In this document: one piece after another, positions 1,607-22,453 of the stretch
Layout: every line of letters begins with the position of its first letter
Numbering within the stretch: position 1 is the first letter of the stretch
Origin: Nocardioides coralli
GTDB lineage: Bacteria > Actinomycetota > Actinomycetes > Propionibacteriales > Nocardioidaceae
Reading direction: 5' to 3'
Length of the DNA: 64,000 nucleotides
Assembly (NCBI RefSeq): GCF_019880385.1
Contig: NZ_CP082273.1
Location: forward strand, 1,054,001-1,118,000
Translations under genes and position numbers: made by a program
Notes under the pieces: model-generated
What the model saw: only the letters and a program-made list of their open reading frames with translations
Database searches by the model: none
Told to the model about the DNA's origin: nothing

Positions 1607-3031
1607 ATGTCAATGTTCAAGTGGGACGTCGTCGATCCGGCGCCCGGTGAGTCCGTAGCACCGCACCAGCGGCTGCCGTGGGGCAAGACGGTGGGCCTGG
1701 GCGCGCAGCACGTCGTGGCCATGTTCGGCGCCACCTTCGTGTTCCCGATCGTCATGGGGCTCGACCCCAACCTCGCCATCATGTTCTCGGGCATCTGCAC
1801 GATCCTGTTCCTGCTGATCTGCAGCAACAAGGTGCCGAGCTACCTCGGCACCAGTGCCTCGTTCGTCGCCAGCGTGGCGGCGATCCGGGGGCTCGGCGGC
1901 GACTCCGCCGACGTCACCGGCGCGATCCTGCTGGGTGGCCTGGTGCTGGCCCTCGTCGGCGTCCTGGTCCACTTCTCCGGCGCTGGCATGATTCACCGGA
2001 TCCTGCCCCCGGCGGTGACCGGTGCGGTCGTCATGCTGATCGGCTTCAACCTGGCCCCCGTCGTGGCGCAGATCTACTGGCCGCAGGACCAGTGGATCGC
2101 CCTGATCACGGCCACGTTCATGGTCGTCGCCGCGGTCATGCTCCCCGGCTTCTGGTCCCGCATCGCGGTGTTCCTCGCCCTCATCTTCGGCTACCTGCTG
2201 TCCTGGGTCGCCGACGGGCTCCTCGGCCCCATCACCTCCGTCCTGCCGACCAGCAACGGCGAGGCCGTCGAGCACGACCGCGTCAGCTGGGCCGGTGTCC
2301 AGGCCGCAGACTGGATCGGGCTCCCGAGCGGCACCCTCGCCGACGGCGTGTCCGCCGTCCACGGGCCCTCCTTCTCGCTGACCTTCTTCCTGCTCGTGCT
2401 CCCGGGCGTGATCGCGCTCGTGGCCGAGAACACCGGTCACGTCAAGGCGGTCGCGGAGATGACCGGCGAGGACCTCGACCCCTACATGGGGCGGGCCATC
2501 GGTGCCGACGGCCTGGCGACCGCGCTCGCCTCGTCGTTCGGCGGCTCGCCGACCACGACGTACGCCGAGAACATCGGCGTCATGGGCGCGACGCGCGTCT
2601 ACTCCACCGCCGCCTACTACGTCGCCGCGGCCGTGGCGATCCTGCTGGGCCTGTGCCCCAAGTTCGGTGCCATCGTCAACGCGACGCCGGGCGGGGTGCT
2701 CGGCGGGATCACGCTGGTGCTCTACGGCATGATCGGACTCGTGGGCGCCAAGATCTGGGTCGAGAACAGGGTCGACTTCGGCAACCCCGTCAACATGGTC
2801 GGCCTGGCCGCCGGCATCATCGCGGGCGTCGGCAACGTGAGCCTGCAGATCACCGACGACTTCGAGCTGACCGGCATCGCCCTCGGCACGATCCTCGTCA
2901 TCGTCTACTTCCACCTGGTCAAGGGCCGCACCGGTACGGGCGTCGGCGCAGTGACGCGCAACCTGAGCCACCCCGACTACGACGAGGGTGTCGACGACGT
3001 GGCCTCGAAGGGGGACCCCGACACCCGATGA
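1607..3031 (+). CDS. NCS2 uracil/xanthine permease
   Basis: Membrane symporter importing a nucleobase (uracil or xanthine). ATG at 1607 is chosen because AGGAGGGG (1597-1604) precedes it; 474 aa. The start QHVVAMFGATFVFPIVMGL and the family signature SPTTTYAENIGVMG (about residue 315) are typical of NCS2, and about a dozen hydrophobic segments follow. Its stop overlaps the start of the Mo-hydroxylase FAD subunit (ATGA at 3028), so it heads that operon and probably supplies its substrate. Substrate identity (uracil versus xanthine) cannot be read by eye. Confidence 0.92.
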   Translation: MSMFKWDVVDPAPGESVAPHQRLPWGKTVGLGAQHVVAMFGATFVFPIVMGLDPNLAIMFSGICTILFLLICSNKVPSYLGTSASFVASVAAIRGLGGDSADVTGAILLGGLVLALVGVLVHFSGAGMIHRILPPAVTGAVVMLIGFNLAPVVAQIYWPQDQWIALITATFMVVAAVMLPGFWSRIAVFLALIFGYLLSWVADGLLGPITSVLPTSNGEAVEHDRVSWAGVQAADWIGLPSGTLADGVSAVHGPSFSLTFFLLVLPGVIALVAENTGHVKAVAEMTGEDLDPYMGRAIGADGLATALASSFGGSPTTTYAENIGVMGATRVYSTAAYYVAAAVAILLGLCPKFGAIVNATPGGVLGGITLVLYGMIGLVGAKIWVENRVDFGNPVNMVGLAAGIIAGVGNVSLQITDDFELTGIALGTILVIVYFHLVKGRTGTGVGAVTRNLSHPDYDEGVDDVASKGDPDTR

Positions 3032-3864
3032 AGCCAGCACCGTTCCGCTACCGCCGTCCGGGGAGCCTCGAGGAGGCGCTCGAGGCCCTGGCGGCGGAGC
3101 CGGGAGCCAAGGTGCTGGCCGGGGGCCAGAGCCTGGTCCCCCTGCTCAACATGCGGTTGGCGGCGCCACCGGCGCTGGTGGACATCAACGGGCTCCCCGA
3201 CCTCGACCACGTCACGGTCTCCGACGACGGGGTCAGGGTCGGGGCGCTCGCCCGCCACGCCGACGTCCTCGCGCACGAGGGCGCCCGCGAGGCGCAGCCG
3301 CTGCTGGCCCGGGCGCTCTCCCACGTGGCGCACGCGACCATCCGCAACCGCGGCACCACGGTGGGCTCGATCGTGCACGCCGACGCCGCGGCCGAGATGC
3401 CGACGGTGCTGGCGGTCCTCGACGGTTCCGTCACGGTCGCGTCCGTGCGGGGCACACGCACCATCCCGGCCGCCGAGCTGTTCGCGGGACCCCTCGAGTC
3501 GACCCTGGCGGCCGACGAGGTCGCCACCGAGGCGTTCTTCCCGGCCCGTCGACCGGGGGAGGGTTCGGGCTTCGCCGAGATCGCCCGGCGTCACGGTGAC
3601 TACGCCCTGGTCGGCGTCGCCGGCGTCGTACGTCGGGAGGGTGACCGGCTCGCCGAGGCGCGGCTGGGCTACCTCTCGGTCGACGACGTGCCCACCGTGG
3701 TCGACGTGACGGGTCTCGAGCCGGACGCCGCGGCCGACCGGGCGCTCGAGGTGCTCGAGCCCGAGGCCGACATCCATGCCACCGCCGCCTACCGCGCCCA
3801 GCTGGTGCGGGTCCTGACCCGGCGGGTGCTGGCGGCCGCCACCGACGACGCGGGACAGCCATGA
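3028..3864 (+). CDS. Molybdenum hydroxylase FAD-binding subunit (CoxM/XdhB type)
   Basis: 278 aa. Medium subunit of a xanthine-dehydrogenase-family hydroxylase, carrying FAD that passes electrons from the iron-sulfur centres to the acceptor. FAD-contact motifs are visible: AGGQSLVPLLNMR (about 30-42) and TIRNRGTTVGSIVHADAAAE (about 109-128), followed by a CO-dehydrogenase flavoprotein C-terminal domain. It overlaps the permease stop and the 2Fe-2S subunit start by 4 nt each. Subunit order here is FAD, Fe-S, Mo. Confidence 0.93.
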   Translation: MKPAPFRYRRPGSLEEALEALAAEPGAKVLAGGQSLVPLLNMRLAAPPALVDINGLPDLDHVTVSDDGVRVGALARHADVLAHEGAREAQPLLARALSHVAHATIRNRGTTVGSIVHADAAAEMPTVLAVLDGSVTVASVRGTRTIPAAELFAGPLESTLAADEVATEAFFPARRPGEGSGFAEIARRHGDYALVGVAGVVRREGDRLAEARLGYLSVDDVPTVVDVTGLEPDAAADRALEVLEPEADIHATAAYRAQLVRVLTRRVLAAATDDAGQP

Positions 3865-4355
3865 CCGAAGAGCTCCACGACCTCCGACTGATCGTCAACG
3901 GCGCCACCCACGCGGTGCGCGTGCCGGCCCGTCGGCTGCTCTCCGACGCGCTGCGTCACGACTGCGGCCTCACCGGCACCCACGTCGGGTGCGAGCACGG
4001 CGTGTGCGGTGCCTGCACCGTGCTGCTCGACGGCCGGGCGGTCCGCTCGTGCCTGGTGTTCGCCGTCTCCGCGGAGGGCGCCGACATCACCACGGTCGAG
4101 GGCCTGACCCGTGACGACGGCACGCTCGGTCCGGTCCAGCAGGCCTTCGCCGACTGCCACGGGCTGCAGTGCGGTTTCTGCACGCCCGGGTTCCTCACCA
4201 CCATCACTGCCGGTCTGCGTGACAACCCCGATCCCTCCGAGGAGGAGGCCCGCGACATGATCGCCGGCAACCTGTGCCGCTGCACCGGTTACCAGAACAT
4301 CGTGGCGGCCGTCCGCCGCGCCGCCGAGCTGGCCGCCGACGAGGAGCCCGCGTGA
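3861..4355 (+). CDS. Molybdenum hydroxylase 2Fe-2S subunit (CoxS/XdhC-like small subunit)
   Basis: 164 aa electron-transfer subunit with two [2Fe-2S] clusters. The plant-ferredoxin-type N-terminal cluster motif is GCEHGVCGACTVLLDG (about residues 43-58); the C-terminal helical cluster shows CGFCTPG and CRCTGY (about 101-140). Length is normal for the family. It is coupled to both neighbours by ATGA/GTGA overlaps. Confidence 0.95.
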   Translation: MTEELHDLRLIVNGATHAVRVPARRLLSDALRHDCGLTGTHVGCEHGVCGACTVLLDGRAVRSCLVFAVSAEGADITTVEGLTRDDGTLGPVQQAFADCHGLQCGFCTPGFLTTITAGLRDNPDPSEEEARDMIAGNLCRCTGYQNIVAAVRRAAELAADEEPA

Positions 4356-6745
4356 CCACCAAGCTCTTCGGCAGCAAGGTCCCCCGGGTCGAGGACCAGC
4401 GGCTGCTGCGTGGCCAGGGCCGCTACGCCGACGACGTCCTGGTCGGCCAGCGGGTGCTCCACGCCGCGGTGCTGCGCTCCCCGCACGCCCACGCCCGCAT
4501 CCTCGACATCGACGTCGGCGACGTGCTCGAGGTCGACGGCGTGCACGCCGTGTGGACCCACGAGGACCTGCAGGGCGCGATGGCCGAGCCGCTCCCGCTC
4601 CTGATCCCCCACCCGACGCTCACCCACGGCCGCACCCAGTACGCCCTGGCCCGCGACGAGGTCAACTACGTCGGCGAGGCCGTCGCGTTCGTCGTGGCCG
4701 AGGACCGCTACGTCGCCGAGGACGCGGTGACCCGGATCCGGGTCGACTACGAGGTCCTCGAGCCCGTCGTCGGCGTGGAGGCCGCCCGCGCGGCGCAGAA
4801 GGCGGTCCACGACGACGTCCCCGACAACGTCGCGGCCCGGATGGAGCAGGAGAACGGCGACGCGCGCGCCGCGATCGCGGACGCACCCCACACGCTCTCG
4901 CTCGACCTCACCATCGAGCGCTCGGCCTGCCAGCCCCTGGAGGGGCGCGGCGTCGTCGCCCGCTGGGACCCCGACCTGGGCCGGATGACGGTGTGGTCCT
5001 CGACGCAGACCTCCACCGGCGTACGCGGTTGCGTGGCCGCCAAGCTGGGCCTCGACCTGGGCCAGGTCGACGTCATCACGCCCGACGTCGGCGGCGGCTT
5101 CGGGGTCAAGATCAACCACCCGTGGCCGGAGGAGCTGCTGGTGCCCCTCGCTGCGCGGACCCTCGGCGTCCCGGTGCGCTTCACCGAGGACCGGCGCGAG
5201 CACTTCATCTCCTCCGCGCACGAGCGGGGCCAGGTCCACCACGTCGAGGTGGGCTTCGACGACGAGGGGCGGATCCTCGGCCTCGACGTGGAGTTCTGGC
5301 ACGACCACGGCGCCTACATCCCCTACGGCCTGATCGTCCCGATCATCACCTCGACCCAGCTGCTGGGCCCCTACAAGCCGCAGAGCTACCGGGTGCGGTT
5401 CGAGAGCCTCTACACCAACACCGTGATGGTGACGCCCTACCGCGGGGCGGGCCGGCCGCAGGGCTGCTTCGTCATGGAGCGGACGATGGACGCGATCGCC
5501 GCCGCCCTGGGGCGCGACCGCACCGAGGTCCGTGCCGCCAACTTCATCCAGCCCGACGAGTTCCCCTTCGACCAGGGCCTGGTCTTCCAGGACGGGCGCG
5601 AGCTCGAGTACGACTCCGGCGACTACCCCGCCCTGCTCGACCGGCTCAAGGACCTCGTCGGGTGGGAGGAGTTCCCGGCCTTCCGCGAGGAGATGGCGGC
5701 GCAGGGACGGCGCGTCGGCATCGGCCTCGCCTGCTACGTGGAGGGGACCGGTGTCGGCCCCTACGAGGGTGCCCACGTCCACATCGAGACCTCCGGGAAG
5801 GTGAAGGTCGCCACCGGCCTGACCAGCCAGGGCCAGGGCCACCAGACGGCGTTCGCGCAGATCGTGGCCGACGAGCTGGGCGTGCCGTTCGAGCAGGTCG
5901 AGGTCACCACCGGCGACACGCGCCGGATGCCGTACGCCGTGGGGACCTTCGCCTCGCGCGCGGCGGTGATGAGCGGCTCGGCGATCCACCTGGCCGCCCA
6001 GCGCGCCAAGGAGAAGGCGCTCCGCATCGCGGCGGACGCGCTCGAGGCCGACGAGGCCGACCTCGAGCTGGTCGACGGCACGGTCCGGGTCCGCGGCACC
6101 GAGACCGGCATCGACCTCGGCACGGTGGCGGTGCTGTCCAACCCGTTGCGCTACGCCTTCGACGAGGCCTCCAAGGCCGCGACCCAGTTCTCCGTCGGTG
6201 ATCCCGGCAAGCCGCCTGTCGCGGAGGACGACGAGCCGGGCCTGGAGGGCAAGGACTTCTACTCCCCGGAGCGGTCGACCTATGCGAGCGGGATGCACGC
6301 GGTGATCGTGGAGACCGACCCCGAGACCGCGGAGATCAGGATCCTCAAGTACGCCGTGGTCCACGACTGCGGCCACCTCATCAACCCGATGATCGTCGAG
6401 GGCCAGATCCACGGGGGGGTGGCGCAGGGGGTCGGCGGTGCGCTCTACGAGCGGATGGCCTACGACGAGTCGGGCCAGCTGCTCAACGCCTCCTTCATGG
6501 ACTTCCTCATGCCCTACGTCACCGAGGTGCCGGCCGGCATCGACATCGACCACCTCGAGACGCCCTCCCCGCTCAACCCGCTCGGCATCAAGGGCGCCGG
6601 CGAGGCCGGGGTGATCCCGTCCGCGGCGGTCTTCGCGGCGGCGATCGAGGACGCCGAGGGGATCCCGATCACCGCGATGCCGATCTCGCCCTCGGAGCTC
6701 TTCGACCTACGGACCCAGCGACAGACGCAGCAGGAGACGACATGA
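4352..6745 (+). CDS. Molybdenum hydroxylase large (molybdopterin-binding) subunit
   Basis: 797 aa catalytic subunit. GTG at 4352 overlaps the small-subunit stop. Mo-cofactor motifs include GGGFGVK (about 246-252), TPYRGAGRP (about 363-371), GQGHQTAF and the C-terminal KGAGEAG carrying the catalytic Glu (about residue 750). The active-site loop is of the PYRGAGR kind, not the AYXCSFR loop of true form I CO dehydrogenase, so oxidation of an organic substrate, probably an N-heterocycle, is expected. With a nucleobase permease upstream and a barbiturase-family gene in the island, uracil/thymine dehydrogenase is an attractive but unproven assignment; xanthine dehydrogenase is the alternative. Confidence 0.92.
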
Positions 6746-7368
6746 AGTTCGCCGGAGAGAACACCCTGCACGCCCCGGTCGAGCAGGCCTGGGACGCCCT
6801 GCTCGACCCGGCGGTGCTGGTGCGCACCATCCCGGGCTGCGAGCGGCTCGAGGCGCTCCCGTCCGAGGCGGGGGAGAACGCCTACGCCATGACCGTCACC
6901 GCGGGCGTCGCCGCCATCCGCGGGACCTACTCGGGGACCTGCGTGCTCTCAGACCTGCAGCCCCACGAGTCGCTCGTGATGAAGCTCGACGGGGCCGGCG
7001 CCCCCGGCACGATCGGGGCCACGGTGCAGGTCAGGTTCCAGCCTTCGGGGGAGTCCACCACGGTGGCGTGGGACGCCGACGCGACCGTCGGCGGGATGAT
7101 CGGTGGCGTCGGGCAGCGGATGCTCAGCTCGGTGTCGAAGCGGATGGCGGGCGAGTTCTTCGGCAACGTCGACGACGTCGTCACCGGCGCCGCGGGCCCT
7201 GGCGCACCCGAGGCCGCGGCGGCCTCCGCCACCACCGAGTCCGCGCCCGGGGTCTTCACCGCCCCGGCCCGTCCGGCGGCGGTGTCCTCGCAGCGCGACT
7301 TCCTCGCCGGGGTCGCCGTCGGCGCCGGCCTGGTGGCCCTCGGGGTGCTGCTCGGACGACGCCGGTGA
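6742..7368 (+). CDS. CoxG-like SRPBCC protein with C-terminal membrane anchor
   Basis: 208 aa. Residues about 1-145 form a CoxG/SRPBCC fold ([20 protein letters not shown], ...PGCERLE); a low-complexity Ala/Pro linker leads to one C-terminal membrane segment (FLAGVAVGAGLVALGVLL) and a basic tail. CoxG homologues accompany Mo-hydroxylases; in CO-oxidising and H2-oxidising systems they are linked to membrane attachment or quinone coupling. It overlaps the large subunit (ATGA) and the amidase (GTGA). Confidence 0.85.
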   Translation: MKFAGENTLHAPVEQAWDALLDPAVLVRTIPGCERLEALPSEAGENAYAMTVTAGVAAIRGTYSGTCVLSDLQPHESLVMKLDGAGAPGTIGATVQVRFQPSGESTTVAWDADATVGGMIGGVGQRMLSSVSKRMAGEFFGNVDDVVTGAAGPGAPEAAAASATTESAPGVFTAPARPAAVSSQRDFLAGVAVGAGLVALGVLLGRRR

Positions 7369-8756
7369 CCCTCACCGTCGACTCGCCGGCGCGCGAGCAG
7401 GCCGACGCCGTACGTCGCCGTGAGATCTCGGCGCGGGAGCTCCTCGAGCTCCACCTGGCCCGCATCGCCGAGCGCAACCCGCAGCTCAACGCGATCGTCT
7501 CCCTCGACGAGGAGCGGGCCCGCGAGGGCGCGACCGCCGCCGACGACCACCTCGCCCGCGGCCACCAGGTCGGCCCGCTCCACGGGCTGCCGATGGCCAT
7601 CAAGGACACCCACGCGGTGGCCGGGTGGCGCACGACGTACGGCTCACCGCTCTTCGCCGACCACGTCCCGGACCGCGACGACCTGGTGGTGGAACGGATC
7701 CGGCGGGCCGGGGCGGTGCTGGTCGGGAGGACCAACGTGCCGGAGTTCGCCGCCGGCAGCCACACGTTCAACCGCGTCTTCGGGACCACCCGCAACCCGG
7801 TCGACCCGGAGCGGTCCGCCGGCGGGTCCAGCGGGGGAGCGGCCGCCGCGCTCGCCAGCGGCATGGTCCCCCTCGCCGACGGCTCCGACATGGGCGGCAG
7901 CCTGCGCAACCCGGCCTCGTTCTGCGGGGTGGTGGGGCTGCGGCCGAGCCTGGGCCGGGTGCCGACGTGGCCTGCTGCCAACCAGTGGGAGACGACCTCG
8001 GTCAGCGGGCCGATGGGGCGCACCGTCGCCGACGTGGCGCTGCTGCTGTCGGTGATGGCGGGCCCCGACCCGCGGGTGCCGTTGGCGCTCTCGCAGCCCG
8101 GCCACGTCTTCGCCCCGCCCGTCGCCGGGACCCTGGCCGGTCTCCGGGTCGGGTGGTCGGTGGACCTCGGCGGCCTGCTCGCCGTCGACGAGCGCGTCGC
8201 CAGCGTCCTGGCGTCGGTCGGGCACCTCCTCGTGGGTGCCGGGGCCCGCGTCTTCGAGGACCACCCCGACCTCTCGCTGGCCGACGACGCCTTCCGCACG
8301 CTGCGGGCCTGGCACTTCCAGGCCAGCTACGGCGAGCTGCTGCATCGTCATCCCGACGACATCAAGCCGTCCCTGGCCGACAACATCCGGGCGGGTGAAC
8401 GCCTCACCGGTGCCGACGTCGCACGCGCCTTCGCCGCCCGCACCACGCTGGGCGAGGTCATGCGGGAGTTCTTCACCCGCTACGACGTGCTCGTGCTCCC
8501 GACCTCGCAGGTGCCGCCGTTCCCGGTCGAGCAGGAGTACCCCACCGAGATCAACGGCCGCCCCATGGAGTCCTACCTCGACTGGATGCGGTCGGCGTAC
8601 GTCGTCACCGTGACCGGGTGCCCAGCCGTGTCGGTCCCGGCCGGCACCACCCCCGAGGGGCTACCGGTGGGCGTGCAGCTGGTCGCGCCGCACGGTCAGG
8701 ACCGGCGGCTGCTCGAGGTCGCCGCGGCCTTCGAGCTGGCCCGCACCGGCGGCTGA
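7365..8756 (+). CDS. Amidase-signature family hydrolase
   Basis: 463 aa, GTG at 7365 overlapping the CoxG-like stop. The Ser-cisSer-Lys triad is visible: Lys in MAIKDTHAVAG (about residue 75), cis-Ser in SAGGSSGGAAAALASG and nucleophile Ser in DMGGSLRNPASF. It cleaves a linear amide or ureide C-N bond. As last gene of the Mo-hydroxylase operon it may act on the ring-opened product, for example ureidomalonate (ureidomalonase role) or a carboxybiuret-type compound; this is inferred from context only. Its 3' end overlaps the convergent gene at 8696-9370 by 61 bp. Confidence 0.88.
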   Translation: MTLTVDSPAREQADAVRRREISARELLELHLARIAERNPQLNAIVSLDEERAREGATAADDHLARGHQVGPLHGLPMAIKDTHAVAGWRTTYGSPLFADHVPDRDDLVVERIRRAGAVLVGRTNVPEFAAGSHTFNRVFGTTRNPVDPERSAGGSSGGAAAALASGMVPLADGSDMGGSLRNPASFCGVVGLRPSLGRVPTWPAANQWETTSVSGPMGRTVADVALLLSVMAGPDPRVPLALSQPGHVFAPPVAGTLAGLRVGWSVDLGGLLAVDERVASVLASVGHLLVGAGARVFEDHPDLSLADDAFRTLRAWHFQASYGELLHRHPDDIKPSLADNIRAGERLTGADVARAFAARTTLGEVMREFFTRYDVLVLPTSQVPPFPVEQEYPTEINGRPMESYLDWMRSAYVVTVTGCPAVSVPAGTTPEGLPVGVQLVAPHGQDRRLLEVAAAFELARTGG

Positions 8757-9509: not shown

Positions 9510-9515
9510 TAGCGT
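9510..9515 (+). promoter_or_regulatory. Leaderless-type -10 box (TAGCGT) of the histidine kinase
   Basis: TAGCGT ends 7 nt before ATG at 9523. The upstream in-frame GTG (9514) lies inside this box, which argues for the ATG as the true start. Confidence 0.5.
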
Positions 9516-9522
9516 GACACCC

Positions 9523-11990: not shown

Positions 11991-11995
11991 CCGGC

Positions 11996-12390: not shown

Positions 12391-12481
12391 GCCGTTCCCG
12401 GAGCCAGGCGACCCGGTGCCGTCGTCCGGTCGGGGAAATCGTCCCACGAGCCCCGCCGGGGCTGTCCAGTCCAGCGTGCCA

Positions 12482-12875: not shown

Positions 12876-12992
12876 CTATTTCCGCGGACCCCCTGTCGCG
12901 GAAACCCGGTGGTCGGCGGGGTCCCGCGCGCCCGAGGTCCCCAGCGTGCCGGACTCCGTCGACCTCCTCCGCCGGGGTGCCATGATGAGCCG

Positions 12993-13667
12993 GTGACGGC
13001 GACGTACCGCGTGCTCCACTCGATCGTGCCGCCGGTGCTCCGGGCGGTGTGGCGACCGACCGTGACGGGCCTCGACCTCGTCCCCCGGACCGGACCGGTG
13101 ATCCTCGCCAGCAACCACCTGAGCTTCGTGGACAGCGTCGTCATCCCGTGCGTCGTCCCGCGCAAGGTCGTCTTCCTCGCCAAGTCCGACTACTTCACCG
13201 GCACCGGCGTCCGCGGCACCGTCCGGCGGCTGTGGTTCGAGGGGATCGGGATGCTGCCGGTCGACCGTGACGACAGCCGCGCCGCCCTCGCGAGCCTCGA
13301 CACCGCCCTGGAGGTGCTCGGCCGGGGTGAGGCCTTCGGCATCTACCCCGAGGGCACCCGGTCGCGCGACGGGCGCCTCTACCGCGGCCGCACCGGCGTG
13401 GCGCACCTGGCGCTCACCGCGGGCTGCCCGGTCGTGCCGGTGGGCCTGCAGGGGACCCAGGACATCCAACCCGTCGGGTCGAGCCGCCCCCGGCTGGCCG
13501 ACGTCACGGTGCGGTTCGGGGAGCCGCTGGACTTCACCGGCCGGTTCGACGGGGTGCCCTCGGGTCGCGCCCGTCGGGAGGCGACCGACGAGATCATGGC
13601 TGCCATCGCGCGGCTGTCCGGCCAGGAGCAGGCCGGGACCTACAACGAGCGCTCGCTCGGGGTCTGA
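12993..13667 (+). CDS. PlsC-type 1-acyl-glycerol-3-phosphate acyltransferase
   Basis: 224 aa. Membrane-associated acyltransferase of phospholipid synthesis. The HX4D motif NHLSFVD (about residues 36-42) and the phosphate-binding block YPEGTRSRDGRLYRGRTG (about 116-133) are clear. GTG at 12993 is the first in-frame start after the tandem element. The 3' end overlaps the convergent 2H-phosphoesterase by 28 bp. Confidence 0.9.
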   Translation: MTATYRVLHSIVPPVLRAVWRPTVTGLDLVPRTGPVILASNHLSFVDSVVIPCVVPRKVVFLAKSDYFTGTGVRGTVRRLWFEGIGMLPVDRDDSRAALASLDTALEVLGRGEAFGIYPEGTRSRDGRLYRGRTGVAHLALTAGCPVVPVGLQGTQDIQPVGSSRPRLADVTVRFGEPLDFTGRFDGVPSGRARREATDEIMAAIARLSGQEQAGTYNERSLGV

Positions 13668-14304: not shown

Positions 14305-16401
14305 ATGGCGCAGCGGATCCGGATCGGCATCGACACCGGAGGCACCTTCACCGACGTGGTCGCGGTCGACGAGACCACGGGTGAGGTGGTCACCACGAAG
14401 ACACCCTCCACCCCGGCCAACCCCGCTGACGGCTTCCTGGCGGGCATCGAGAAGGTGCTCGACCTCCTCGCTGCCGGCGGCGGGTCGATCAGCGCGGTCT
14501 GCCACGGCACCACGGTCGCCACCAACCAGCTGCTGGAGGGCAAGGTCGACCGGCTCGGTTACGTCACGACCACGGGCTACGAGGCGATGCTGGAGATCGC
14601 GCGGCAGTCGGTGCCCGACGGCTACGGCAACTCCTACTTCTGGGTGAAGCCGGACCGCATCGTCCCTCGCGACCTGGTGCGCGGCGTCGAGGGCCGCCTC
14701 GACTTCACCGGCGAGGAGGTGCGGCCCTTCGACGAGGACGGTGCGCGCGAGGTGGCCCGCTGGTTCCGCGACCGCGGCATCACCACCCTCGGTGTCTGCT
14801 TCCTGCACGCCTACGCCAACCCCGACCACGAGCTGCGGATGCGGGAGGTCATCGCCGAGGAGCACCCCGAGGCTGTGGTCTCCATCAGCAGCGAGGTGCT
14901 GCGCGAGTACCGCGAGTACGAACGGGCGATGACCACGCTGGTGGACGCCGCGGTGAAGCCGCGGCTCGCGGCGTACGTCACCAACATCACCGAACGGCTC
15001 GCCGCCGAGCACCAGCAGGACGGGCAGCGGCCGATCCCGTTCTACGTCATGAAGTCCAACGGCGGCGTGCTCAGCGCGGAGGAGGTGGTCCACCAGCCCA
15101 TCACCACCGTGCTCTCCGGCCCGGCGGCCGGCGCGCTGGGCGCCGCGCTGATCGCGAAGGTCGCGGGCTTCGACAAGGTGCTCACCAGCGACGGTGGCGG
15201 AACCTCCACCGACGTCTCAATCGTCATCGACGGCGAGCCCACCCTGACCACGGAGGGCAGCGTCGGGGTCTACCCGTCGAAGATCCCCATGATCGACGTC
15301 GTCACCGTCGGGGCGGGCGGCGGGTCGATCGCCCACCTCTCGCCGGAGGGCACCCTGAAGGTCGGACCCCAGTCGGCGGGCGCCGACCCCGGGCCGCTCT
15401 GCTACGCGAAGGGCGGCACCGACGTGACGATCACGGACGCCCACGTGGTCCTGGGGAGGATCCCGCCCCACCTGCTCGGGGGTGAGATCCCGCTCGACAC
15501 CGAGGCCGCGCGCCGGGGGGTCGAGGAGCTGGCCGACCGGCTCGGGCTGAGCCCGGAGGCGGCCGCGGTGGGCGTGCTGGAGATCTCGGCCTGGAACCAG
15601 GCCAACGCCCTGCGCCAGGTGACGGTCAAGCGGGGGCTCGACGTCCGCGACTTCGCGCTCGCCACCTTCGGCGGGTCCGGATCGCTGCTGCTGTGCCGGC
15701 TCATGGACATCCTCGGCATCCCCACCGTGCTGGTACCGCCGGACCCGGGCAACGTGTCGGCGTTCGGCCTGCTCACCGTCGACGTCAAGAACGACTACGT
15801 CCAGACCCATGTCAGCCTCGCCGAGACGCTCGAGGTCGCCGAGGTCGCGCGGGTCTACGCCGACCTGGAGTCGCGGGCCGCCGCCGCGCTGCGGACCGAG
15901 GGGTTCCCCGAGGAGGAGCACCGCTTCGACCGGACCGCCGACCTGCGCTACTTCGGGCAGGCCTTCGAGGTCCGGGTGCCGGTGCCGACCGGCGAGTTCG
16001 ACGACCGCACCGCCGCCGCCGTGGTGGAGGCCTTCCACGCCGAGCACCGCGGCCTCTACGGCTACGACTTCGCCCACGACGACAGCCAGCACGTCGAGTG
16101 GGTCAACCTGCGGGTCTCGGGCATCGGCCCCATCCAGCGACCCGAGATCCGGAAGGCGGAGGCGTCGCCGCCCGCCGAGGTGCGCGGCGAGCGGCGCCGC
16201 GCGGTCTGCTTCGAGGCCGCCGACGGGTACGTCGACACCCCGGTCGTCTGGCGCCCCGACCTGGCCGCAGGGACGACGCTGACCGGCCCGGTCATCATCG
16301 AGGAGTACGGCTCCACGGTCCCGGTCCACCCCGGGTTCGCGGTCCGGGTCGACGACTACCGCAACCTCATCGTCACCCGCGAGGAGAGGAACGAGCCGTG
16401 A
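14305..16401 (+). CDS. hyuA: Hydantoinase/oxoprolinase subunit A (HyuA)
   Basis: 698 aa ASKHA-fold ATPase subunit of an ATP-dependent cyclic amidase (N-methylhydantoinase, 5-oxoprolinase or acetophenone-carboxylase superfamily). The N-terminal phosphate loop IGIDTGGTFTDVVAVDETTG and the second nucleotide motif SDGGGTSTDVSIV (about 293-305) are intact. It overlaps hyuB by 4 nt. In this island it could open a hydantoin-like or dihydropyrimidine-like ring, or activate a lactam. Substrate cannot be read from sequence. Confidence 0.92.
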   Translation: MAQRIRIGIDTGGTFTDVVAVDETTGEVVTTKTPSTPANPADGFLAGIEKVLDLLAAGGGSISAVCHGTTVATNQLLEGKVDRLGYVTTTGYEAMLEIARQSVPDGYGNSYFWVKPDRIVPRDLVRGVEGRLDFTGEEVRPFDEDGAREVARWFRDRGITTLGVCFLHAYANPDHELRMREVIAEEHPEAVVSISSEVLREYREYERAMTTLVDAAVKPRLAAYVTNITERLAAEHQQDGQRPIPFYVMKSNGGVLSAEEVVHQPITTVLSGPAAGALGAALIAKVAGFDKVLTSDGGGTSTDVSIVIDGEPTLTTEGSVGVYPSKIPMIDVVTVGAGGGSIAHLSPEGTLKVGPQSAGADPGPLCYAKGGTDVTITDAHVVLGRIPPHLLGGEIPLDTEAARRGVEELADRLGLSPEAAAVGVLEISAWNQANALRQVTVKRGLDVRDFALATFGGSGSLLLCRLMDILGIPTVLVPPDPGNVSAFGLLTVDVKNDYVQTHVSLAETLEVAEVARVYADLESRAAAALRTEGFPEEEHRFDRTADLRYFGQAFEVRVPVPTGEFDDRTAAAVVEAFHAEHRGLYGYDFAHDDSQHVEWVNLRVSGIGPIQRPEIRKAEASPPAEVRGERRRAVCFEAADGYVDTPVVWRPDLAAGTTLTGPVIIEEYGSTVPVHPGFAVRVDDYRNLIVTREERNEP

Positions 16402-18332
16402 GCAACCGATCCCGCAGGGTCCCGACCCAGTTCCCCTACGGCCACCTCACCGACGACGCCGGTGCCGGCGCCGACCCGGTCCTGACCGAGATCGTGCAGG
16501 GCACGCTGGCCAGCGTCGAGATGGAGGTCGAGACCGCCATCGCCCGCACCTCGCGCAGCCCGATGATCCGGGACGCCCACGACTTCCGCGCGGGTATCCA
16601 CGACCGCCTCCTGCGCAAGCTCACCGGCCGCTCGTACTCCGCCCTCGTCCACCCGGTGGCGCGCGACTTCCCGATCGCGGAGATGCGGGAGGGTGACGTC
16701 TTCTTCCACAACGACGTCTACCGCTCCGAGGGCGGCATCGGCCACCTGCCGGACCTGTGCGTCACGGTGCCGGTGTTCGCCGGCCCCGCGGGGGAGCGGG
16801 CGGTCGTCGCCTTCGTCCAGGCCTTCGGCCACCACGACGACATCGGCGGCGCGGTGCCCGGCTCGATGCCGAGCCAGGCCACCAGCGTCTTCGAGGAGGG
16901 CCTGATGGTCCCCCCCATCCGGTTGTGGGACCAGGGCCGCCCCAACCGGAGCGCGCTGGCGATCATGACCCGCAACTCCCGGATGCCGGAGTCGCTGGCC
17001 GCCGACCTCGACGCCGAGTGCTCGGCCTGCCTCATGGGCGCCCGGCGGCTGGGGGAGATGTTCGACCGGTACGGCGTGGCGGCGGTCGAGTCGTGCTTCG
17101 ACGCCATCCTGTCGCGCACCACCGAGACCTACCGGCGGGAGATCCTGGCCAAGATCCCTGTCGGCACCTGGACGTGGGAGGACTACGCCGAGCACGACGG
17201 CGTGGACGAGCCGCGGCTGCACGCGCAGCGGATCACCCTGACCCGCACCGCCCCCGACGACCCCGACGGCGAACGGCTGGTGCTCGACTTCGACGGCACC
17301 GGCCCGCAGGCGAAAGGACCGATCAACCACTGCGGCGACTACAGCGACGGGGTCTTCCTCAAGAAGTGGCTGGCACCCATCCTGCGCAACCTCGCCGACA
17401 CCCCGGAGCGGATGGCCGAGCTCGACGTCAACGAGGGGGTCGTGCCCCTCATCGAGATGCGGTTCCCCGAGCCGGGCACCCTGCTCACGCCCGTCTTCCC
17501 GGCGCCGACCAACGCCCGGACCTTCGTGATCCTGCGGCTGCTCGGTGTGCTGGCCGGGGTCGTGGCGAAGGCGGTCGACGGGCGGATGCCGGCCGACCAG
17601 GAGACCATCCGCTACACCGGCGTCTACGGCGAGGACCGCGAGGGCCGCCCCTACCTGATGCGCGAGGTGCTCGGGGGCGGCTCCGGTGGCCGCTACTACG
17701 CCGACGGCGAGGACACCATCCACGTCGTGCCCGACTCCCGGAACCTCCCCAGCGAGTTCACCGAGTCCCGCTTCCCCTTCCTCGTCGAGTCGCTGTCGCT
17801 CGCGGTCGACTCGGGCGGCGCCGGGGAGTTCCGCGGCGGTCTCGGCTACGAGAAGCACATCCGGATGCTCAAGGACGCCCACTTCATGTCGATCGCCGAC
17901 CGCTCGATCCTCGCGTGCTGGGGGGTGAGGGGTGGCCGCGCCGGCGCACCGTTCCAGGTCACCGTCGACCCCGGCGGACCCCACGAGCGCGACGTGGACG
18001 CCCTGGCCGACGCCGAGCCGGTGAAGGCCGGTGAGGTGATCCGGATCCGCACCACCGGCGGCGGCGGCTGGGGCGACCCGCTGCGCCGTGAACCGGAGCT
18101 GGTGGTGCGCGACGTCGTGTGGCGCAAGGTCTCGCCGGAGGCGGCGCTGCGCGACTACGGCGTGGTGCTCACCGGATCGGTCGAGGGTGACGACCTGGCG
18201 CACGACGCCACCGCCACCGAGGCGGAGCGGGCCGGCCGTACCGTCGAGGCCGACGCGCCCTTCTTCGACCGGGGCCCGGGCTACGCCCGGCTGGCCGACG
18301 GGGCGGCGTACGCCGACGTGGACCGGGTCTGA
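16398..18332 (+). CDS. hyuB: Hydantoinase subunit B (HyuB)
   Basis: 644 aa partner of HyuA, GTG at 16398 inside the hyuA stop. Typical HyuB lines are present: DPVLTEIVQGTLASVEMEVE at the start, RDFPIAEMREGDVFFHNDVY, GHHDDIGGAVPGSMP (His and Asp residues likely bind metal) and a C-terminal TTGGGGWGDPLRREPE. Length is somewhat over the usual 520-600 aa because of an extra C-terminal tail. The deaminase start follows 1 bp after the stop. Confidence 0.92.
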   Translation: MSNRSRRVPTQFPYGHLTDDAGAGADPVLTEIVQGTLASVEMEVETAIARTSRSPMIRDAHDFRAGIHDRLLRKLTGRSYSALVHPVARDFPIAEMREGDVFFHNDVYRSEGGIGHLPDLCVTVPVFAGPAGERAVVAFVQAFGHHDDIGGAVPGSMPSQATSVFEEGLMVPPIRLWDQGRPNRSALAIMTRNSRMPESLAADLDAECSACLMGARRLGEMFDRYGVAAVESCFDAILSRTTETYRREILAKIPVGTWTWEDYAEHDGVDEPRLHAQRITLTRTAPDDPDGERLVLDFDGTGPQAKGPINHCGDYSDGVFLKKWLAPILRNLADTPERMAELDVNEGVVPLIEMRFPEPGTLLTPVFPAPTNARTFVILRLLGVLAGVVAKAVDGRMPADQETIRYTGVYGEDREGRPYLMREVLGGGSGGRYYADGEDTIHVVPDSRNLPSEFTESRFPFLVESLSLAVDSGGAGEFRGGLGYEKHIRMLKDAHFMSIADRSILACWGVRGGRAGAPFQVTVDPGGPHERDVDALADAEPVKAGEVIRIRTTGGGGWGDPLRREPELVVRDVVWRKVSPEAALRDYGVVLTGSVEGDDLAHDATATEAERAGRTVEADAPFFDRGPGYARLADGAAYADVDRV

Positions 18333-18333: not shown

Positions 18334-18819
18334 GTGGCGCTCGACGACACCGACCTCGCGCACCTGCGCCGGTGCGTCGCGCTGGCCCGTGAGGCCCTCG
18401 ACGACGGCGACGAGCCCTTCGGGTCGGTCCTGGTCGACGCCGCCGGCGAGGTCCGGTTCGAGGACCGCAACCGGGTCAAGGGCGGCGACCACACCCGCCA
18501 CCCCGAGCTCGCGATCGCCCGGTGGTCCGCCGCCCACCTCGCTCCCGCCGAGCGCGCGGCGGCGACCGTCTACACCTCGGGCGAGCACTGCCCGATGTGC
18601 GCGGCGGCCCACGGCTGGGTGGGCCTCGGTCGCGTCGTCTATGCCGTGTCGGCCGCACGGCTCAGCGCCTGGCGCGAGGAGTGGGGGCTGCCACCCGGGG
18701 CGGTCCGGCCGCTGCCGATCGGCGAGGTGGCGCCCGGTGTGCCCGTCGACGGACCCGCGGCCGAGCTGGAGGCCGAGATGCGGGAGCTCCACCACCGCAG
18801 CGTGGCGACCGGGCCGTGA
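18334..18819 (+). CDS. Nucleoside/nucleobase deaminase (CDA superfamily)
   Basis: 161 aa zinc deaminase. Zinc ligands and catalytic Glu appear as HPE in HTRHPELAIARW (about residue 52) and CPMC in GEHCPMCAAAHGW (about 86-89). The HPE form, in place of HAE, occurs in guanine-deaminase-like members. It may deaminate cytosine, guanine or a related ring before oxidation. It starts right after hyuB and overlaps the NmrA-like gene (GTGA). Confidence 0.85.
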   Translation: MALDDTDLAHLRRCVALAREALDDGDEPFGSVLVDAAGEVRFEDRNRVKGGDHTRHPELAIARWSAAHLAPAERAAATVYTSGEHCPMCAAAHGWVGLGRVVYAVSAARLSAWREEWGLPPGAVRPLPIGEVAPGVPVDGPAAELEAEMRELHHRSVATGP

Positions 18820-19613
18820 CCACCACGGTCGCCGTGGTCGGGGGCTCCGGCAAGACCGGCCGGGTGGTCCGTGCGGCGCTCACGCACCGCGGGGCCGCGT
18901 CGTTCCCCACCGGCCGCGACGACTGGGACGCCCTCGCCCGCGCGCTGGCACCGGCCGACCGGCTCTACCTGGTGGCGCCCAACCTGCACCCCGACGAGCC
19001 GGCGTACGTCGCCGCGGTGCTCGAGGCGGCGCACGCGGCCGGGATCGAGCGGGTGGTCTACCACTCGGTCGCCGCTCCGCACGCACCCGCGATGCCCCAC
19101 CACCTCGCCAAGGCCGAGGCGGAGGACCTGGTCCGCCGGTCGGGGCTGGGCTGGACGGTGCTGCAGCCGGGTGCCTACGTGCAGAACCTGCCGCTGGACG
19201 GCAGCCCGGTCCGCGTCCCCTACCGGGCCGACGTGCCGTTCGGCTTCGCACACCTCCCCGACGTCGGGGAGGCCGCCGCTGCGGTCCTGCTGGGGGAGGG
19301 GCACGAGGGCGCGACCTACGAGCTCGCCTCCTTCCGGGCCAGCGTGGCGGAGGTCGCGGGGGTGGTGGGCGCCCCGGTCGAGGTGCTGACCCCCGAGGCG
19401 TGGGCCGCCGGCGAGGGAGCCGGGCTGGACGCACGTCGTCGCACGTGGCTGCTCGCGATGTTCGCCTACTACGACCAGCACGGCCTGCCGGTCGGGACCG
19501 GGCCGATTTCGCTGCTGCTGGGCGGGCCGCCGACCCCGCTGCGGGCAGCGTGCTCCTTGAAGGGCGACCCGGCGCGACGCACGATGGACAGAGGCCCGGA
19601 ACCGACGAGGTGA
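18816..19613 (+). CDS. NmrA-like NAD(P)-binding protein
   Basis: 265 aa atypical short-chain reductase. N-terminal VAVVGGSGKTGRVV is an NAD(P)-binding Rossmann loop; YHSVAAPHAP and GWTVLQPGAYVQNL match the NmrA/SDR-a5 pattern. Activity unknown. It sits between the deaminase (4-nt overlap) and the hemerythrin-like gene. Confidence 0.8.
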   Translation: MTTTVAVVGGSGKTGRVVRAALTHRGAASFPTGRDDWDALARALAPADRLYLVAPNLHPDEPAYVAAVLEAAHAAGIERVVYHSVAAPHAPAMPHHLAKAEAEDLVRRSGLGWTVLQPGAYVQNLPLDGSPVRVPYRADVPFGFAHLPDVGEAAAAVLLGEGHEGATYELASFRASVAEVAGVVGAPVEVLTPEAWAAGEGAGLDARRRTWLLAMFAYYDQHGLPVGTGPISLLLGGPPTPLRAACSLKGDPARRTMDRGPEPTR

Positions 19614-19618: not shown

Positions 19619-20293
19619 ATGCCCACGGCCGACCCGCTGCAGCGCAGCATCCAGCACACCCACGACGATCTCGCGGGCCGCCTCGAGCGGGCGAGCGCCG
19701 GTGTCGCCACGCTCGAGGAGCCGCGCAAGGACTACGAGGAGATCGACACCTTCCTCGCGACCGCGAGCCGCCACCTCGGCGCCGTCGACGCGGTCCTGCT
19801 CCCCCTGGCCCACCAGGAGCTGGAGGACGCCCACCGGGCCACCCACGACTACCTGGACGCCGCCCGCCACCTCGAGGTGGTGCTGGCCCACGTGAAGGCC
19901 CGTGCCTATGGATCGGTCTACGAGACCGGGTTCCGCTGGGACGAGGTGTGGGGCGACGTCCGGGCAGCGCTGGCCGATCACCGGGAGCAGGAGCTCGAGC
20001 TCGCGCGGCGGCTGGGCCTGGTCCTCGACCACGCCGAGCTCGACGCCGTGGCCGCGCAGCTGCACCACGCCGAGCCGTCGGCGCCGACGCGGCCGCATCC
20101 GTACGTCCCGCACACCGGGTTCCCGGGGCTGGTCGCGCGCAAGGTGATGCACGCTGCCGACCTGTTCTGGGACGCGGTGGAGGGCCGCATGGTGCCCACG
20201 CCCGCTCGCCCGCGGCGACGCGACCCCGGTCTGGTGGCCCAGTACTTCCTGGCGGACCCCCGCTTCGACCCGGAGGAGCAGCCCAAGGGCTGA
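19619..20293 (+). CDS. Hemerythrin-like HHE-domain protein
   Basis: 224 aa, ATG at 19619 after GAGGTGAGG. It is alpha-helical with spaced His/Glu: QHTHDDLAGRLE, SRHLGAVDAVLLPLAHQELE, THDYLDAARHLE and DHREQELELARRLG, suggesting a di-iron HHE four-helix bundle. The C-terminus is a basic unstructured tail. Role unknown; O2, NO or redox sensing is possible. A weaker family match than its neighbours. Confidence 0.65.
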   Translation: MPTADPLQRSIQHTHDDLAGRLERASAGVATLEEPRKDYEEIDTFLATASRHLGAVDAVLLPLAHQELEDAHRATHDYLDAARHLEVVLAHVKARAYGSVYETGFRWDEVWGDVRAALADHREQELELARRLGLVLDHAELDAVAAQLHHAEPSAPTRPHPYVPHTGFPGLVARKVMHAADLFWDAVEGRMVPTPARPRRRDPGLVAQYFLADPRFDPEEQPKG

Positions 20294-20376
20294 GCACGAC
20301 GGCCTTGGCAACACCTGCCAGCGGACGTCGGTGCGCTTGGAAGGAGTTGCTGTCGTCGCCCGGGGGCGGCACTCAC

Positions 20377-20382
20377 TAGGTT
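20377..20382 (+). promoter_or_regulatory. Leaderless-type -10 box (TAGGTT) of carbamate kinase
   Basis: TAGGTT ends 6 nt before ATG 20389, so transcription probably starts at the start codon. It marks a separate promoter for the kinase and ring-opening hydrolase pair. Confidence 0.5.
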
Positions 20383-20388
20383 CGAGCC

Positions 20389-21321
20389 ATGAGGGTGCTG
20401 CTGGCACTGGGCGGCAACGCCATGGCCAACGACGAGGGTCGCGTCCGCGTCGAGGACCAGCAGGCCGCCGCGGCGGTCGCGATGCGGGCCGTCGCCGAGC
20501 TGATCGCCGCCGGCGCTGACGTGGTGCTGACCCACGGCAACGGCCCGCAGGTGGGCAACCTGCTGGTCAAGAACGAGATCGCCGCGGCCGTGGTGCCACC
20601 CGTCCCGCTCGACTGGTGCGGGGTGCAGACCCAGGCCACCCTCGGGTTCACCCTGATGAACGCGCTCGACAACGAGCTCTCCGGCCGGGGCATCGAGCGC
20701 CCGACGGCCACCGTGGTGACCCGGACCCGGGTCGCGGCCGACGACGCCGGGCTGAGCGCCCCCACCAAGCCGATCGGTCGCTACCTCCCCGAGGACGAGG
20801 CCCGGCCCCTGATGGAGCACGGGCAGGTCTGGGAGGACCGCGGCGAGCGCGGCTGGCGCCGGGTGGTCGCCTCCCCGGAGCCCCTGGAGATCCTCGACGC
20901 CGGCGCCATCCGCTGCCTCGTCGACGCGCGGTACGTCGTGGTCGCCGCCGGCGGTGGCGGCGTCCCCGTCGTGCGCGAGGACGGTGGGCTGCGGGGTGTC
21001 GAGGCGGTCATCGACAAGGACCTCGCCGCCGCCCTGCTCGCGGCGACCGTGGACGCCGAGGTGCTCGTCATCGCCACCGACGTGCCGCACGCCGTGCTCC
21101 GCTTCGGTCAGCCCGACGCCGAGGAGCTCGGCCGGGTGAGTGTGTCGGCGATGCGCGACCACCTGCGGGAGGGTCACTTCGGCAGCGGCTCGATGGGCCC
21201 CAAGGTGGAGGCCGCCTGCCGCTTCGTGGAGCAGGGCGGGCGCCACGCCGCCATCACCCGTCTCGACCGGATCCTCGACGCGGTCGAGGGCCGCGCCGGG
21301 ACCCTCGTCGTCCCCGACTGA
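20389..21321 (+). CDS. arcC: Carbamate kinase
   Basis: 310 aa, full length. Amino-acid-kinase fold that makes ATP from carbamoyl phosphate, or the reverse. Visible motifs are [27 protein letters not shown] (about 45-62), [11 protein letters not shown] and a C-terminal [15 protein letters not shown]. No carbamoyltransferase is seen in the window, so its carbamoyl phosphate source is unclear. It is followed after 25 bp by the barbiturase-family gene. Confidence 0.93.
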
Positions 21322-21346
21322 ACGCCCAACCGAGAGGAAAGCACCC

Positions 21347-22453
21347 ATGCCCAGCGCCATCGAAGTCCGCAAGGTCCCCATCCACTCGGTCGCGGACGCC
21401 TCCGAGCTGACGCGGCTCATCGAGGACGGGGTGATGGCCGCGGACCGCGTCATCGCGATCATCGGCAAGACCGAGGGGAACGGTGGGGTCAACGACTACA
21501 CCCGGATCATCGCCGACCGCGCGTTCCGCGAGGCCCTCGTCGAGCAGGGCGCCGACCCCGAGGCGGTCGCGGAGATCCCGATCGTGTGGTCGGGCGGCAC
21601 CGACGGCGTGATCAGCCCCCACGCGACGATCTTCGCGACGACCGACGTGGCCGACGACGACCCCTCCAAGCAGGAGATGCGGCTGACGGCGGGCTTCGCC
21701 ATGAGCGAGCAGCTGCTGCCCGAGGACATCGGCCGGACCGCGATGGTGAGCAAGGTCGCCGACGCGGTCAGGGTGGCGATGGAGCGGGCCGGGATCGACG
21801 ACCCGGCCGACGTCCACTACGTCCAGACCAAGACCCCGCTGCTGACCATCCACACCATCCGCGACGCCAAGAGCCGCGGCAAGACGGTCTGGACCGAGCA
21901 CACGCACGAGTCGATGGACCTCTCCAACGGCTGCACGGCGCTCGGCATCGCCGTCGCCCTCGGCGAGATCGACATGCCCCGCGACGAGGACGTCATGCAC
22001 GACCGGTCGCTCTACTCCGCGGTGGCGTCGTGCTCCTCGGGCGTCGAGCTCGACCGCGCGCAGGTGGTCGTGGTCGGCAACGCCACCGGCGTGGGCGGTC
22101 GCTACCGGATCGGGCACGCGGTGATGGAGGACGCGCTGGACCAGGACGGCATCTGGGCCGCGATCCGCGACGCGGGCCTCGAGCTGCCCGAGCGGCCCCA
22201 CACCTCCGACCTCGACGGCCGGCTGGTCAACGTGTTCCTGAAGTGCGAGGCCTCCCAGGACGGGGAGGTGCGCGGACGTCGCAACGCGATGCTCGACGAC
22301 TCCGACGTCCACTGGCACCGCCAGATCAAGGCGTGCGTCGGCGGGGTCACCGCGGCGGTCACGGGTGACCCGGCGGTGTTCGTGTCGGTGTCGGCGGCCC
22401 ACCAGGGGCCCGAGGGTGGCGGCCCGGTGGCTGCCATCGTCGACGTGGGCTGA
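21347..22453 (+). CDS. Ring-opening amidohydrolase (barbiturase / cyanuric acid hydrolase family)
   Basis: 368 aa, ATG at 21347 after GAGAGGAAAG. The family has three repeated domains, each giving Lys and Ser active-site residues: [13 protein letters not shown] with [24 protein letters not shown] with [12 protein letters not shown]; and [18 protein letters not shown] with [15 protein letters not shown]. Known members open barbiturate (to ureidomalonate) or cyanuric acid (to carboxybiuret). With a Mo-hydroxylase, nucleobase permease and amidase in the same island, barbiturase is the favoured guess. This is a narrow enzyme family with few characterised members. Confidence 0.9.

Follow-up and report, generated by a model that had tools for sequence, protein, structure and literature searches.

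A conserved barbiturase gene set in Nocardioides coralli and a proposed phosphorolytic route of oxidative uracil degradation

Background

Which compound is degraded by the clustered permease, molybdenum (Mo) hydroxylase and ring-opening hydrolase genes of Nocardioides coralli, and in what form would its nitrogen be released? These genes lie in a 64,000-nucleotide stretch with a G+C content of 73% (bases 1054001-1118000, hereafter the window) of a genome that consists of one contig of 3.53 Mb. A first-pass annotation, made from the letters of the window, proposed that uracil or thymine is oxidized to barbiturate, that the ring is then opened, and that an amidase releases malonate plus urea. It also noted that a hydantoinase-type pair (HyuAB) and a carbamate kinase have no place in the textbook route, and guessed at a different pathway that recovers adenosine triphosphate (ATP).

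To our knowledge, no gene has been assigned to the activity that begins the oxidative uracil route. The open-licence literature, in the parts that were searched, names no gene for uracil/thymine dehydrogenase and holds no paper joining barbiturase with the transcarbamylase AllFGH.

Here we report that the genes belong to a real, conserved pathway that lies mostly within the window and is a variant of the known oxidative pyrimidine route. The gene set probably serves the oxidative degradation of uracil, and presumably of thymine, via AllFGH and carbamate kinase. The biochemistry is predicted from genes throughout, and the substrates, above all those of AllFGH and of the Mo-hydroxylase, are to be read as candidates.

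Results

The ring-opening hydrolase, encoded at 21347-22453, is identified with high confidence as a barbiturase and not a cyanuric acid hydrolase. Against all solved structures, its product scores 678 bits with the barbiturase of Rhodococcus erythropolis (PDB 5hwe), to which it is about 85% identical, versus 322 bits with the best cyanuric acid hydrolase. The first-pass annotation had likewise favored a barbiturase and had named kinship with cyanuric acid hydrolases as a way in which its proposal could fail; by structure-database score, the enzyme stands closer to barbiturase. Cyanuric acid hydrolases carry the motif SGGxExQGPxGGGP (PMC9118981), whereas the C-terminal motif of the window protein reads SAAHQGP ([12 protein letters not shown]). 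The difference in score and this motif led us to reject the cyanuric acid hydrolase reading. The protein also passes NF052395, the NCBIfam equivalog model for cyanuric acid hydrolase (478 bits, cut-off 360), so this model cannot tell the two activities apart in this case. Among the named genomes scanned, from which N. coralli itself was possibly excluded, the nearest barbiturase is that of Nocardioides sediminis (90%). The protein encoded in the R. erythropolis NBRC 15567 locus (L066) is identical to 5hwe at 368 of 369 residues, and the neighborhood of L066 can therefore be taken as that of the characterized enzyme's species.

As a side observation, Arg188 of the Azorhizobium cyanuric acid hydrolase is described as lost in barbiturases, with Gln given instead (PMC4051656). 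With the Lys dyad residue as the starting point for counting, the equivalent position holds Asn in 5hwe and in 99 of 105 barbiturase-type (BAR-type) sequences, the other six being unreadable by pattern; this differs from the published Gln.

Pfam and NCBIfam scans combined with a check of open reading frames (ORFs), whose coding status was read from frame-specific G+C, placed every gene named by the first-pass annotation at or near the position it had given: the overlapping permease, Mo-hydroxylase, CoxG and amidase operon as well as HyuAB, a deaminase, carbamate kinase and the barbiturase-family gene. In the left half (1607-8756) each gene overlaps the next, and these stop/start overlaps are genuine. 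The borders drawn earlier are too narrow, as AllFGH and a PucR-type regulator lie outside the window, 1.0-5.9 kb left of its base 1. The gene set is as follows, in window coordinates unless the contig is named:

1607..3031, plus strand: NCS2 nucleobase permease, closest to RutG (uracil/thymine) models (PF00860, 5.3e-68)
3028..3864, plus strand: flavin adenine dinucleotide (FAD; medium) subunit of the Mo-hydroxylase (PF00941, PF03450), found beside the small- and large-subunit genes (MoS/MoL) in relatives
3861..4355, plus strand: 2Fe-2S (small) subunit of the Mo-hydroxylase (PF01799, PF00111)
4352..6745, plus strand: large subunit of the Mo-hydroxylase, candidate uracil/thymine dehydrogenase (NF040766, named by NCBIfam as CO dehydrogenase group 5)
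6742..7368, plus strand: CoxG-like protein with a hydrophobic C-terminal end (PF06240, 9.6e-20)
7365..8756, plus strand: amidase-signature hydrolase, proposed malonamate amidase, or ureidomalonase on a rival reading (PF01425; NF005686, 496 bits, cut-off 465)
14305..16401, plus strand: HyuA, ATP-dependent hydantoinase/oxoprolinase family (PF05378, PF01968, PF19278)
16398..18332, plus strand: HyuB, partner of HyuA (PF02538)
18334..18819, plus strand: deaminase of the cytidine/deoxycytidylate-deaminase family, an optional member (PF00383, 2.4e-9; 229 bits to PDB 5xkq)
18816..19613, plus strand: NmrA-like NAD(P)-binding protein (PF05368, 41 bits, cut-off 27)
19619-20293: coding frame between the NmrA-like gene and carbamate kinase, with no Pfam match
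20389..21321, plus strand: carbamate kinase (NF009007, 316 bits, cut-off 266)
21347..22453, plus strand: barbiturase (PF09663, TIGR02714)
1048115-1049509 of the contig, minus strand: AllG (PF06545), left of the window
1049506-1050879 of the contig, minus strand: AllF, with an AllF-like Ligase_CoA domain (PF00549), left of the window
1050876-1051694 of the contig, minus strand: AllH (PF11392), left of the window
1051716-1052975 of the contig, plus strand: PucR-type regulator, left of the window

The best NCBIfam model for the permease is RutG, at 353 bits and far under the cut-off of 759; in relatives, the permease gene sits between PucR/AllFGH and the Mo genes.

The distribution of these genes was profiled in 296 whole genomes from the class, with AllFGH represented by AllG alone. 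PF09663 was matched in 67 genomes, 63 of which, from 14 families, were treated as BAR-type. The four set aside (G108, G039, G101, G130) are low scorers with five genes 36-41% identical to that of the window; we labeled them cyanuric-acid-type, the published motif being readable in one of the five genes, and they have neither the Mo enzyme nor AllG. Two genomes were kept as BAR-type on partial matches, G031 with a PF09663 fragment of 28.8 bits over 75 bases and G217 with a barbiturase match in two pieces. Carbamate kinase orthologues were defined by at least 56% identity, the next group lying at 48% or below, and fragments of 62-66% were counted in G028, G031 and G059. The 63 BAR-type genomes hold the Mo large subunit in 62 cases, AllG in 61, HyuA in 59 and the carbamate kinase orthologue in 57; the corresponding figures for the other 233 genomes are 1, 11, 2 and 1. 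When all 67 genomes with PF09663 are considered, the overlap is 62/67 for the Mo large subunit and 61/67 for AllG. Fisher tests gave 7e-62 (Mo) and 4e-49 (AllG), values that, like the counts, are uncorrected for relatedness. The association of four window genes (barbiturase, Mo large subunit, HyuA and carbamate kinase) and AllG is not due to chance.

The same pattern holds in the genus of N. coralli, where barbiturase occurs in 10 of the 15 genomes drawn, all ten of which also have the Mo large subunit, AllG, HyuA and carbamate kinase. At the thresholds used, the five congeneric genomes without barbiturase have no Mo large subunit, AllG or HyuA, and three of them have a carbamate kinase of 44-46% identity. 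The Mo gene and barbiturase are on different contigs, or over 40 kb apart, in 25 of 62 genomes, many assemblies being fragmented, so the linkage is more than one of map position. We also searched 80 named neighborhoods extending up to 10 kb either side of barbiturase, many of them shortened. Matches were found to carbamate kinase in 76, HyuB in 60, the NmrA-like gene in 52, HyuA in 47, the amidase in 29, and the Mo large subunit and CoxG in 24 each. ORF clustering of the loci, which was blurred by spurious antisense ORFs in this GC-rich DNA, was used for the choice of genes and for the deaminase count given below.

In Pseudonocardia acidicola (L084/L055), the set is contiguous on one contig. 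Its order is AllG-AllF-AllH, divergent to PucR, NCS2, the medium (MoM), small and large Mo subunits, CoxG, amidase, HyuA, HyuB, NmrA-like gene, carbamate kinase and barbiturase. This contiguous cluster and the co-occurrence rule out that the two halves of the window set are unrelated neighbors. They form one pathway, as the first-pass annotation had suspected, interrupted in N. coralli by acyltransferase and two-component system genes. Beyond the class, 12 of 178 genomes sampled across the phylum match PF09663, and eight of these belong to other classes. Six of the eight encode carbamate kinase, AllF and AllG on the barbiturase strand and no more than 20 kb from that gene; in the stretch read, the Mo subunits, CoxG and amidase are also near in five, with HyuA in four of those five. 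Among the exceptions, the contig of G404 ends at AllG and that of G384 is 3 kb long.

AllF, AllG and AllH are contiguous in the N. coralli genome, which agrees with the three subunits that oxamic transcarbamylase requires. Together with PucR they adjoin the NCS2-Mo operon, and AllF/AllG with PucR do likewise in many relatives; AllH was seen by sequence in N. coralli, L084 and L116, and AllF plus AllG elsewhere. In 44 of 60 genomes, AllG and the Mo gene are no more than 15 kb apart; in seven they share a contig at a distance of about 92 kb or more. Chemically, ureidomalonate (N-carbamoyl-malonamate) is oxalurate (N-carbamoyl-oxamate) extended by one CH2. In Escherichia coli, AllFGH converts oxalurate and phosphate to oxamate and carbamoyl phosphate, and the operon includes a carbamate kinase, allK (PMC11326118). 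The N. coralli set resembles this oxamate branch of allantoin degradation in having the AllF, AllG and AllH families plus carbamate kinase; it differs in its link to barbiturase and in its AllG, which is 48% identical to that of E. coli and lies on a separate branch. In an unrooted tree of 24 of the 25 AllG sequences collected (L139 was dropped as short), the 18 BAR-linked sequences fall on one side of a branch with support of 95/92, opposite E. coli and five others; three of the non-BAR sequences are long-branched.

The carbamate kinase itself passes NF009007, scores 340 bits with TIGR00746 (under the cut-off of 358) and has 269 bits to PDB 1e19. In 54 of 57 genomes, no more than 1.5 kb separates the start of its gene from the barbiturase match. 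The AllFGH operon just left of the window explains the presence of this kinase, which had been noted as foreign to the textbook route, and fits the earlier guess of an ATP-recovering pathway; HyuAB, noted as foreign with it, has no assigned role, whether urea or carbamoyl phosphate is the product. Gene content, linkage and the tree give fair to good confidence that the branch formed by AllFGH and carbamate kinase would serve ureidomalonate.

The Mo-hydroxylase large subunit matches NF040766, the NCBIfam family for aerobic CO dehydrogenase (CODH) group 5, over its full length (1516 bits, cut-off 950). Its active-site loop is PYRGAGR (residues 362-368), and the form I CODH motif, (A/S)YRCS(F/L)R, is absent; the YRGAGR loop matches that of form II enzymes, the activity of which has been described as unsettled (PMC13240472). 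None of the NCBIfam equivalog cut-offs for xanthine dehydrogenase (XDH) was reached, the large subunit scoring 422 bits against 780 and the other XDH models also falling under their thresholds. A CODH was set aside on the missing form I motif, and an XDH on scores far under the cut-offs. Among proteins of solved structure, the Mo enzyme is best matched by 6-hydroxypseudooxynicotine dehydrogenase and quinoline 2-oxidoreductase. As the Mo enzyme occurs in 62/63 BAR-type genomes versus 1/233 others and lacks the form I motif, it is the best candidate for uracil/thymine dehydrogenase. That it feeds barbiturase, as proposed from the window alone, is predicted with good confidence, and the simplest reading of its function would be that it hydroxylates uracil and thymine to give the substrate of barbiturase. 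Compared with the form II/group 5 family, the window subunit is alike in its full-length match and unlike in its context and co-occurrence, which point to uracil/thymine hydroxylation. NF040766 seems to contain barbiturase-linked nucleobase hydroxylases without the form I motif, and its name may mislead annotation.

According to PMC13240472, CoxG binds menaquinone and delivers electrons from CO dehydrogenase to the quinone pool. The C terminus of the window CoxG is a hydrophobic stretch, and given the described role the same electron transfer may hold here; by analogy, CoxG is likely the membrane/quinone link of the hydroxylase.

The fate of ureidomalonate bears on the earlier proposal that the amidase releases malonate and urea. 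The N. coralli genome has no urease and, in a search of 15 genomes counting only matches above the curated cut-off, since many biotin-dependent carboxylases match, no urea carboxylase. The presence of AllFGH and carbamate kinase without urease or full-length urea carboxylase favors carbamoyl phosphate plus malonamate over urea, and that part of the earlier proposal is not sustained. Urease was found in 20/63 BAR-type genomes; this count leaves out eight weak matches (E 2e-5 to 9e-4, mostly above the low Pfam cut-off), one of which is in a BAR-type genome (G162) and would make 21/63. Its frequency is 17/57 with the carbamate kinase orthologue versus 3/6 without, numbers too small to link urease with absence of the kinase. 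Among the 15 genomes examined more closely, urease is present in all four without AllG (G001, G304, G214 and G274, two of which are of one genus, G274 having no barbiturase) and in 3 of 11 with AllG.

R. erythropolis offers the closest comparison. Soong and colleagues, whose 2001 work is cited in PMC3758960 and PMC7662398, reportedly described, in 2001 and 2002, ureidomalonase and urea formation in what is said to be this species. It has also been reported as a pyrimidine user (PMC3961730). Its NBRC 15567 locus resembles the N. coralli set in the barbiturase (85%) and in having NCS2, three Mo subunits, CoxG, HyuAB and PucR around it. It differs in that AllG was not found in the genome, no carbamate kinase matched within 10 kb of barbiturase, urease is present, and a different amidase, 41% identical to that of the window, directly follows barbiturase; all four points apply equally to Rhodococcus sp. 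P-2. The Rhodococcus genomes and those bearing AllFGH are read as two putative solutions for ureidomalonate, and release of urea would suit R. erythropolis.

In the slot between CoxG and HyuA, 43 loci, some sharing a genome, were searched with three query hydrolases: 27 held the amidase, 10 a CN_hydrolase, two had two amidase matches and four had no query hydrolase. Two unrelated hydrolases in one slot suit a simple amide such as malonamate, but an acyl-urea as well. Omega-amidase belongs to the CN_hydrolase superfamily. The set thus recalls omega-amidases in a slot that can hold a CN_hydrolase, and malonamidase E2 in the amidase-signature family (97 bits to 1obk). These likenesses are distant, and the window amidase is better matched to GatA, aryl acylamidase and biuret hydrolase. 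We know of no ureidomalonase sequence for comparison.

Discussion

In the pathway that we propose, the NCS2 permease would import the base, and the three-subunit Mo-hydroxylase would convert uracil to barbiturate (or thymine to 5-methylbarbiturate) with oxygen from water, its electrons passing via CoxG to the membrane quinone pool. Barbiturase would open the ring to ureidomalonate, which AllFGH would cleave by phosphorolysis to malonamate and carbamoyl phosphate. Carbamate kinase could then yield ATP, CO2 and ammonia from carbamoyl phosphate, and the amidase would hydrolyze malonamate to malonate and ammonia. We consider it rather likely that this reflects an ATP-conserving route in which an AllFGH-type ureidomalonate transcarbamylase and the kinase replace ureidomalonase and urea, fed by a misnamed CODH that passes uracil electrons to quinone via CoxG. 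Many Actinomycetota would then degrade pyrimidines oxidatively mainly in this way, and the known R. erythropolis route would be the exception.

Several observations weigh against this proposal. HyuAB is conserved in the set and yet has no assigned step. Oxalurate could be the substrate of AllFGH; 11 genomes carry AllG but no barbiturase, and in at least three of these (G011, G124, G296) the gene lies beside a carbamate kinase of 40-43% identity. AllG with such a distant kinase looks like an ordinary oxalurate module. Four BAR-type genomes have AllG without the kinase orthologue, and their possession of urea carboxylase (G208, G217) or urease (G139, G249) indicates that mixed states exist. G169 and G159, with AllG and the kinase, show no match to a query hydrolase between CoxG and HyuA. 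The window amidase passes the PRK07486 model (496 bits) but the R. erythropolis amidase passes it more strongly (713), so the former could be a ureidomalonase. Urease is present in the 17 genomes with barbiturase and kinase mentioned above; its presence does not exclude the AllFGH route. Lastly, outside the class, G394 has a barbiturase but just a 27% NCS2 match across the 31 kb read.

Some of these points would suit the textbook route, in which the amidase is a ureidomalonase yielding malonate and urea, and AllFGH and the kinase are merely neighbors that serve purine oxalurate. The family of the window amidase, the position of the R. erythropolis amidase directly after barbiturase where AllG is absent, and urease in about a third of BAR-type genomes are all in keeping with it. 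In nitrifiers, AllFGH and carbamate kinase beside biuret/triuret genes have been read as an oxalurate module (PMC12625717); that ureide-type set shares AllFGH and the kinase with ours and differs in being proposed for oxalurate, and the term "barbitur-" is absent from the text of that paper. We regard the textbook route as unlikely, given that AllG accompanies barbiturase in 61/63 genomes, lies within 20 kb of it in 6/8 genomes of other classes and forms a separate branch, that the kinase adjoins barbiturase in 54/57, and that N. coralli has neither urease nor a full urea carboxylase. A reading of the Mo enzyme as aerobic CODH or XDH, coupled with a cyanuric acid hydrolase, appears very improbable. 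It could draw on the NF040766 score, the presence of CoxG and the passing of NF052395. The YRGAGR loop in place of the form I motif, XDH scores far under cut-off, 678 versus 322 bits, SAAHQGP in place of SGGxExQGP, and the absence of Mo enzyme and AllG from the four low-scoring PF09663 genomes all oppose it.

A different starting ring also seems doubtful: on this reading, HyuAB and the deaminase would process some other N-heterocycle (an aminopyrimidine or a xenobiotic), whose breakdown would join the route at barbiturate. Such a ring would give HyuAB a step, the deaminase resembles 5xkq-type enzymes, and the nearest solved relatives of the Mo subunit act on N-heteroaromatics such as quinoline; moreover, G274 has the Mo enzyme and HyuAB without barbiturase. 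Set against this, the best model for the permease is the uracil/thymine transporter RutG, albeit far under cut-off, the deaminase family is found in just 18/80 neighborhoods, and R. erythropolis, which is reported to use pyrimidines (PMC3961730), shares the Mo, CoxG, HyuAB and barbiturase genes. We prefer uracil, and presumably thymine, as the substrate.

Confidence in any role for HyuAB is low. The pair scores 510 bits with the curated caprolactamase model, under the cut-off of 1000, and its best solved relative is an N-methylhydantoinase (7hk5, 463 bits). Two complete genomes (100% each) depart from the pattern. G274 (locus G274:C35, L115) combines Mo-hydroxylase, CoxG, HyuAB and PucR with no barbiturase-family gene and no AllG, and may reveal the HyuAB substrate; G214 has barbiturase and the Mo enzyme without HyuA, AllG or a kinase orthologue. 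As a speculation, HyuAB may open a ring that barbiturase refuses, such as 5-methylbarbiturate from thymine. The deaminase, whose ORF family count of 18 excludes the window itself, may feed amino-pyrimidines.

The analysis provides a three-gene candidate for uracil/thymine dehydrogenase and points to a transcarbamylase whose substrate is likely to be new. If the proposal is true, an NCBIfam "CO dehydrogenase" family is a nucleobase hydroxylase, and CO oxidation surveys in which CoxL is counted with no motif check would be affected. It also predicts that aerobic soil actinobacteria obtain ATP from pyrimidines.

Genes for a CoA-transferase of family III and AccA/AccD-like carboxyltransferases, which could activate malonate, lie near barbiturase in R. 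erythropolis and others; neither matched in the 64-kb window at E 1e-8. The R. erythropolis barbiturase cluster also holds a class III aminotransferase gene (L066:12768-13991) between the amidase and a second NCS2 gene.

The two halves of the window set are separated by 9514-13667, which encodes a PAS-type histidine kinase and response regulator (9514-11990) and a PlsC-type acyltransferase (12861-13667). The kinase and regulator matched in none of the 80 named neighborhoods at E 1e-10, and thus resemble an insertion; in further loci the histidine kinase query gave just 28-36% matches. The acyltransferase matched in 4/80 at the same threshold and adjoins AllG in the additional locus L116. On these counts, the genes of this interval were dropped as pathway members. 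At the left edge of the window, a minus-strand coding frame of 472 residues (1-1217, continuing leftward) has no Pfam match at 1e-5, and a relative of it (33%) sits between PucR and NCS2 in L116.

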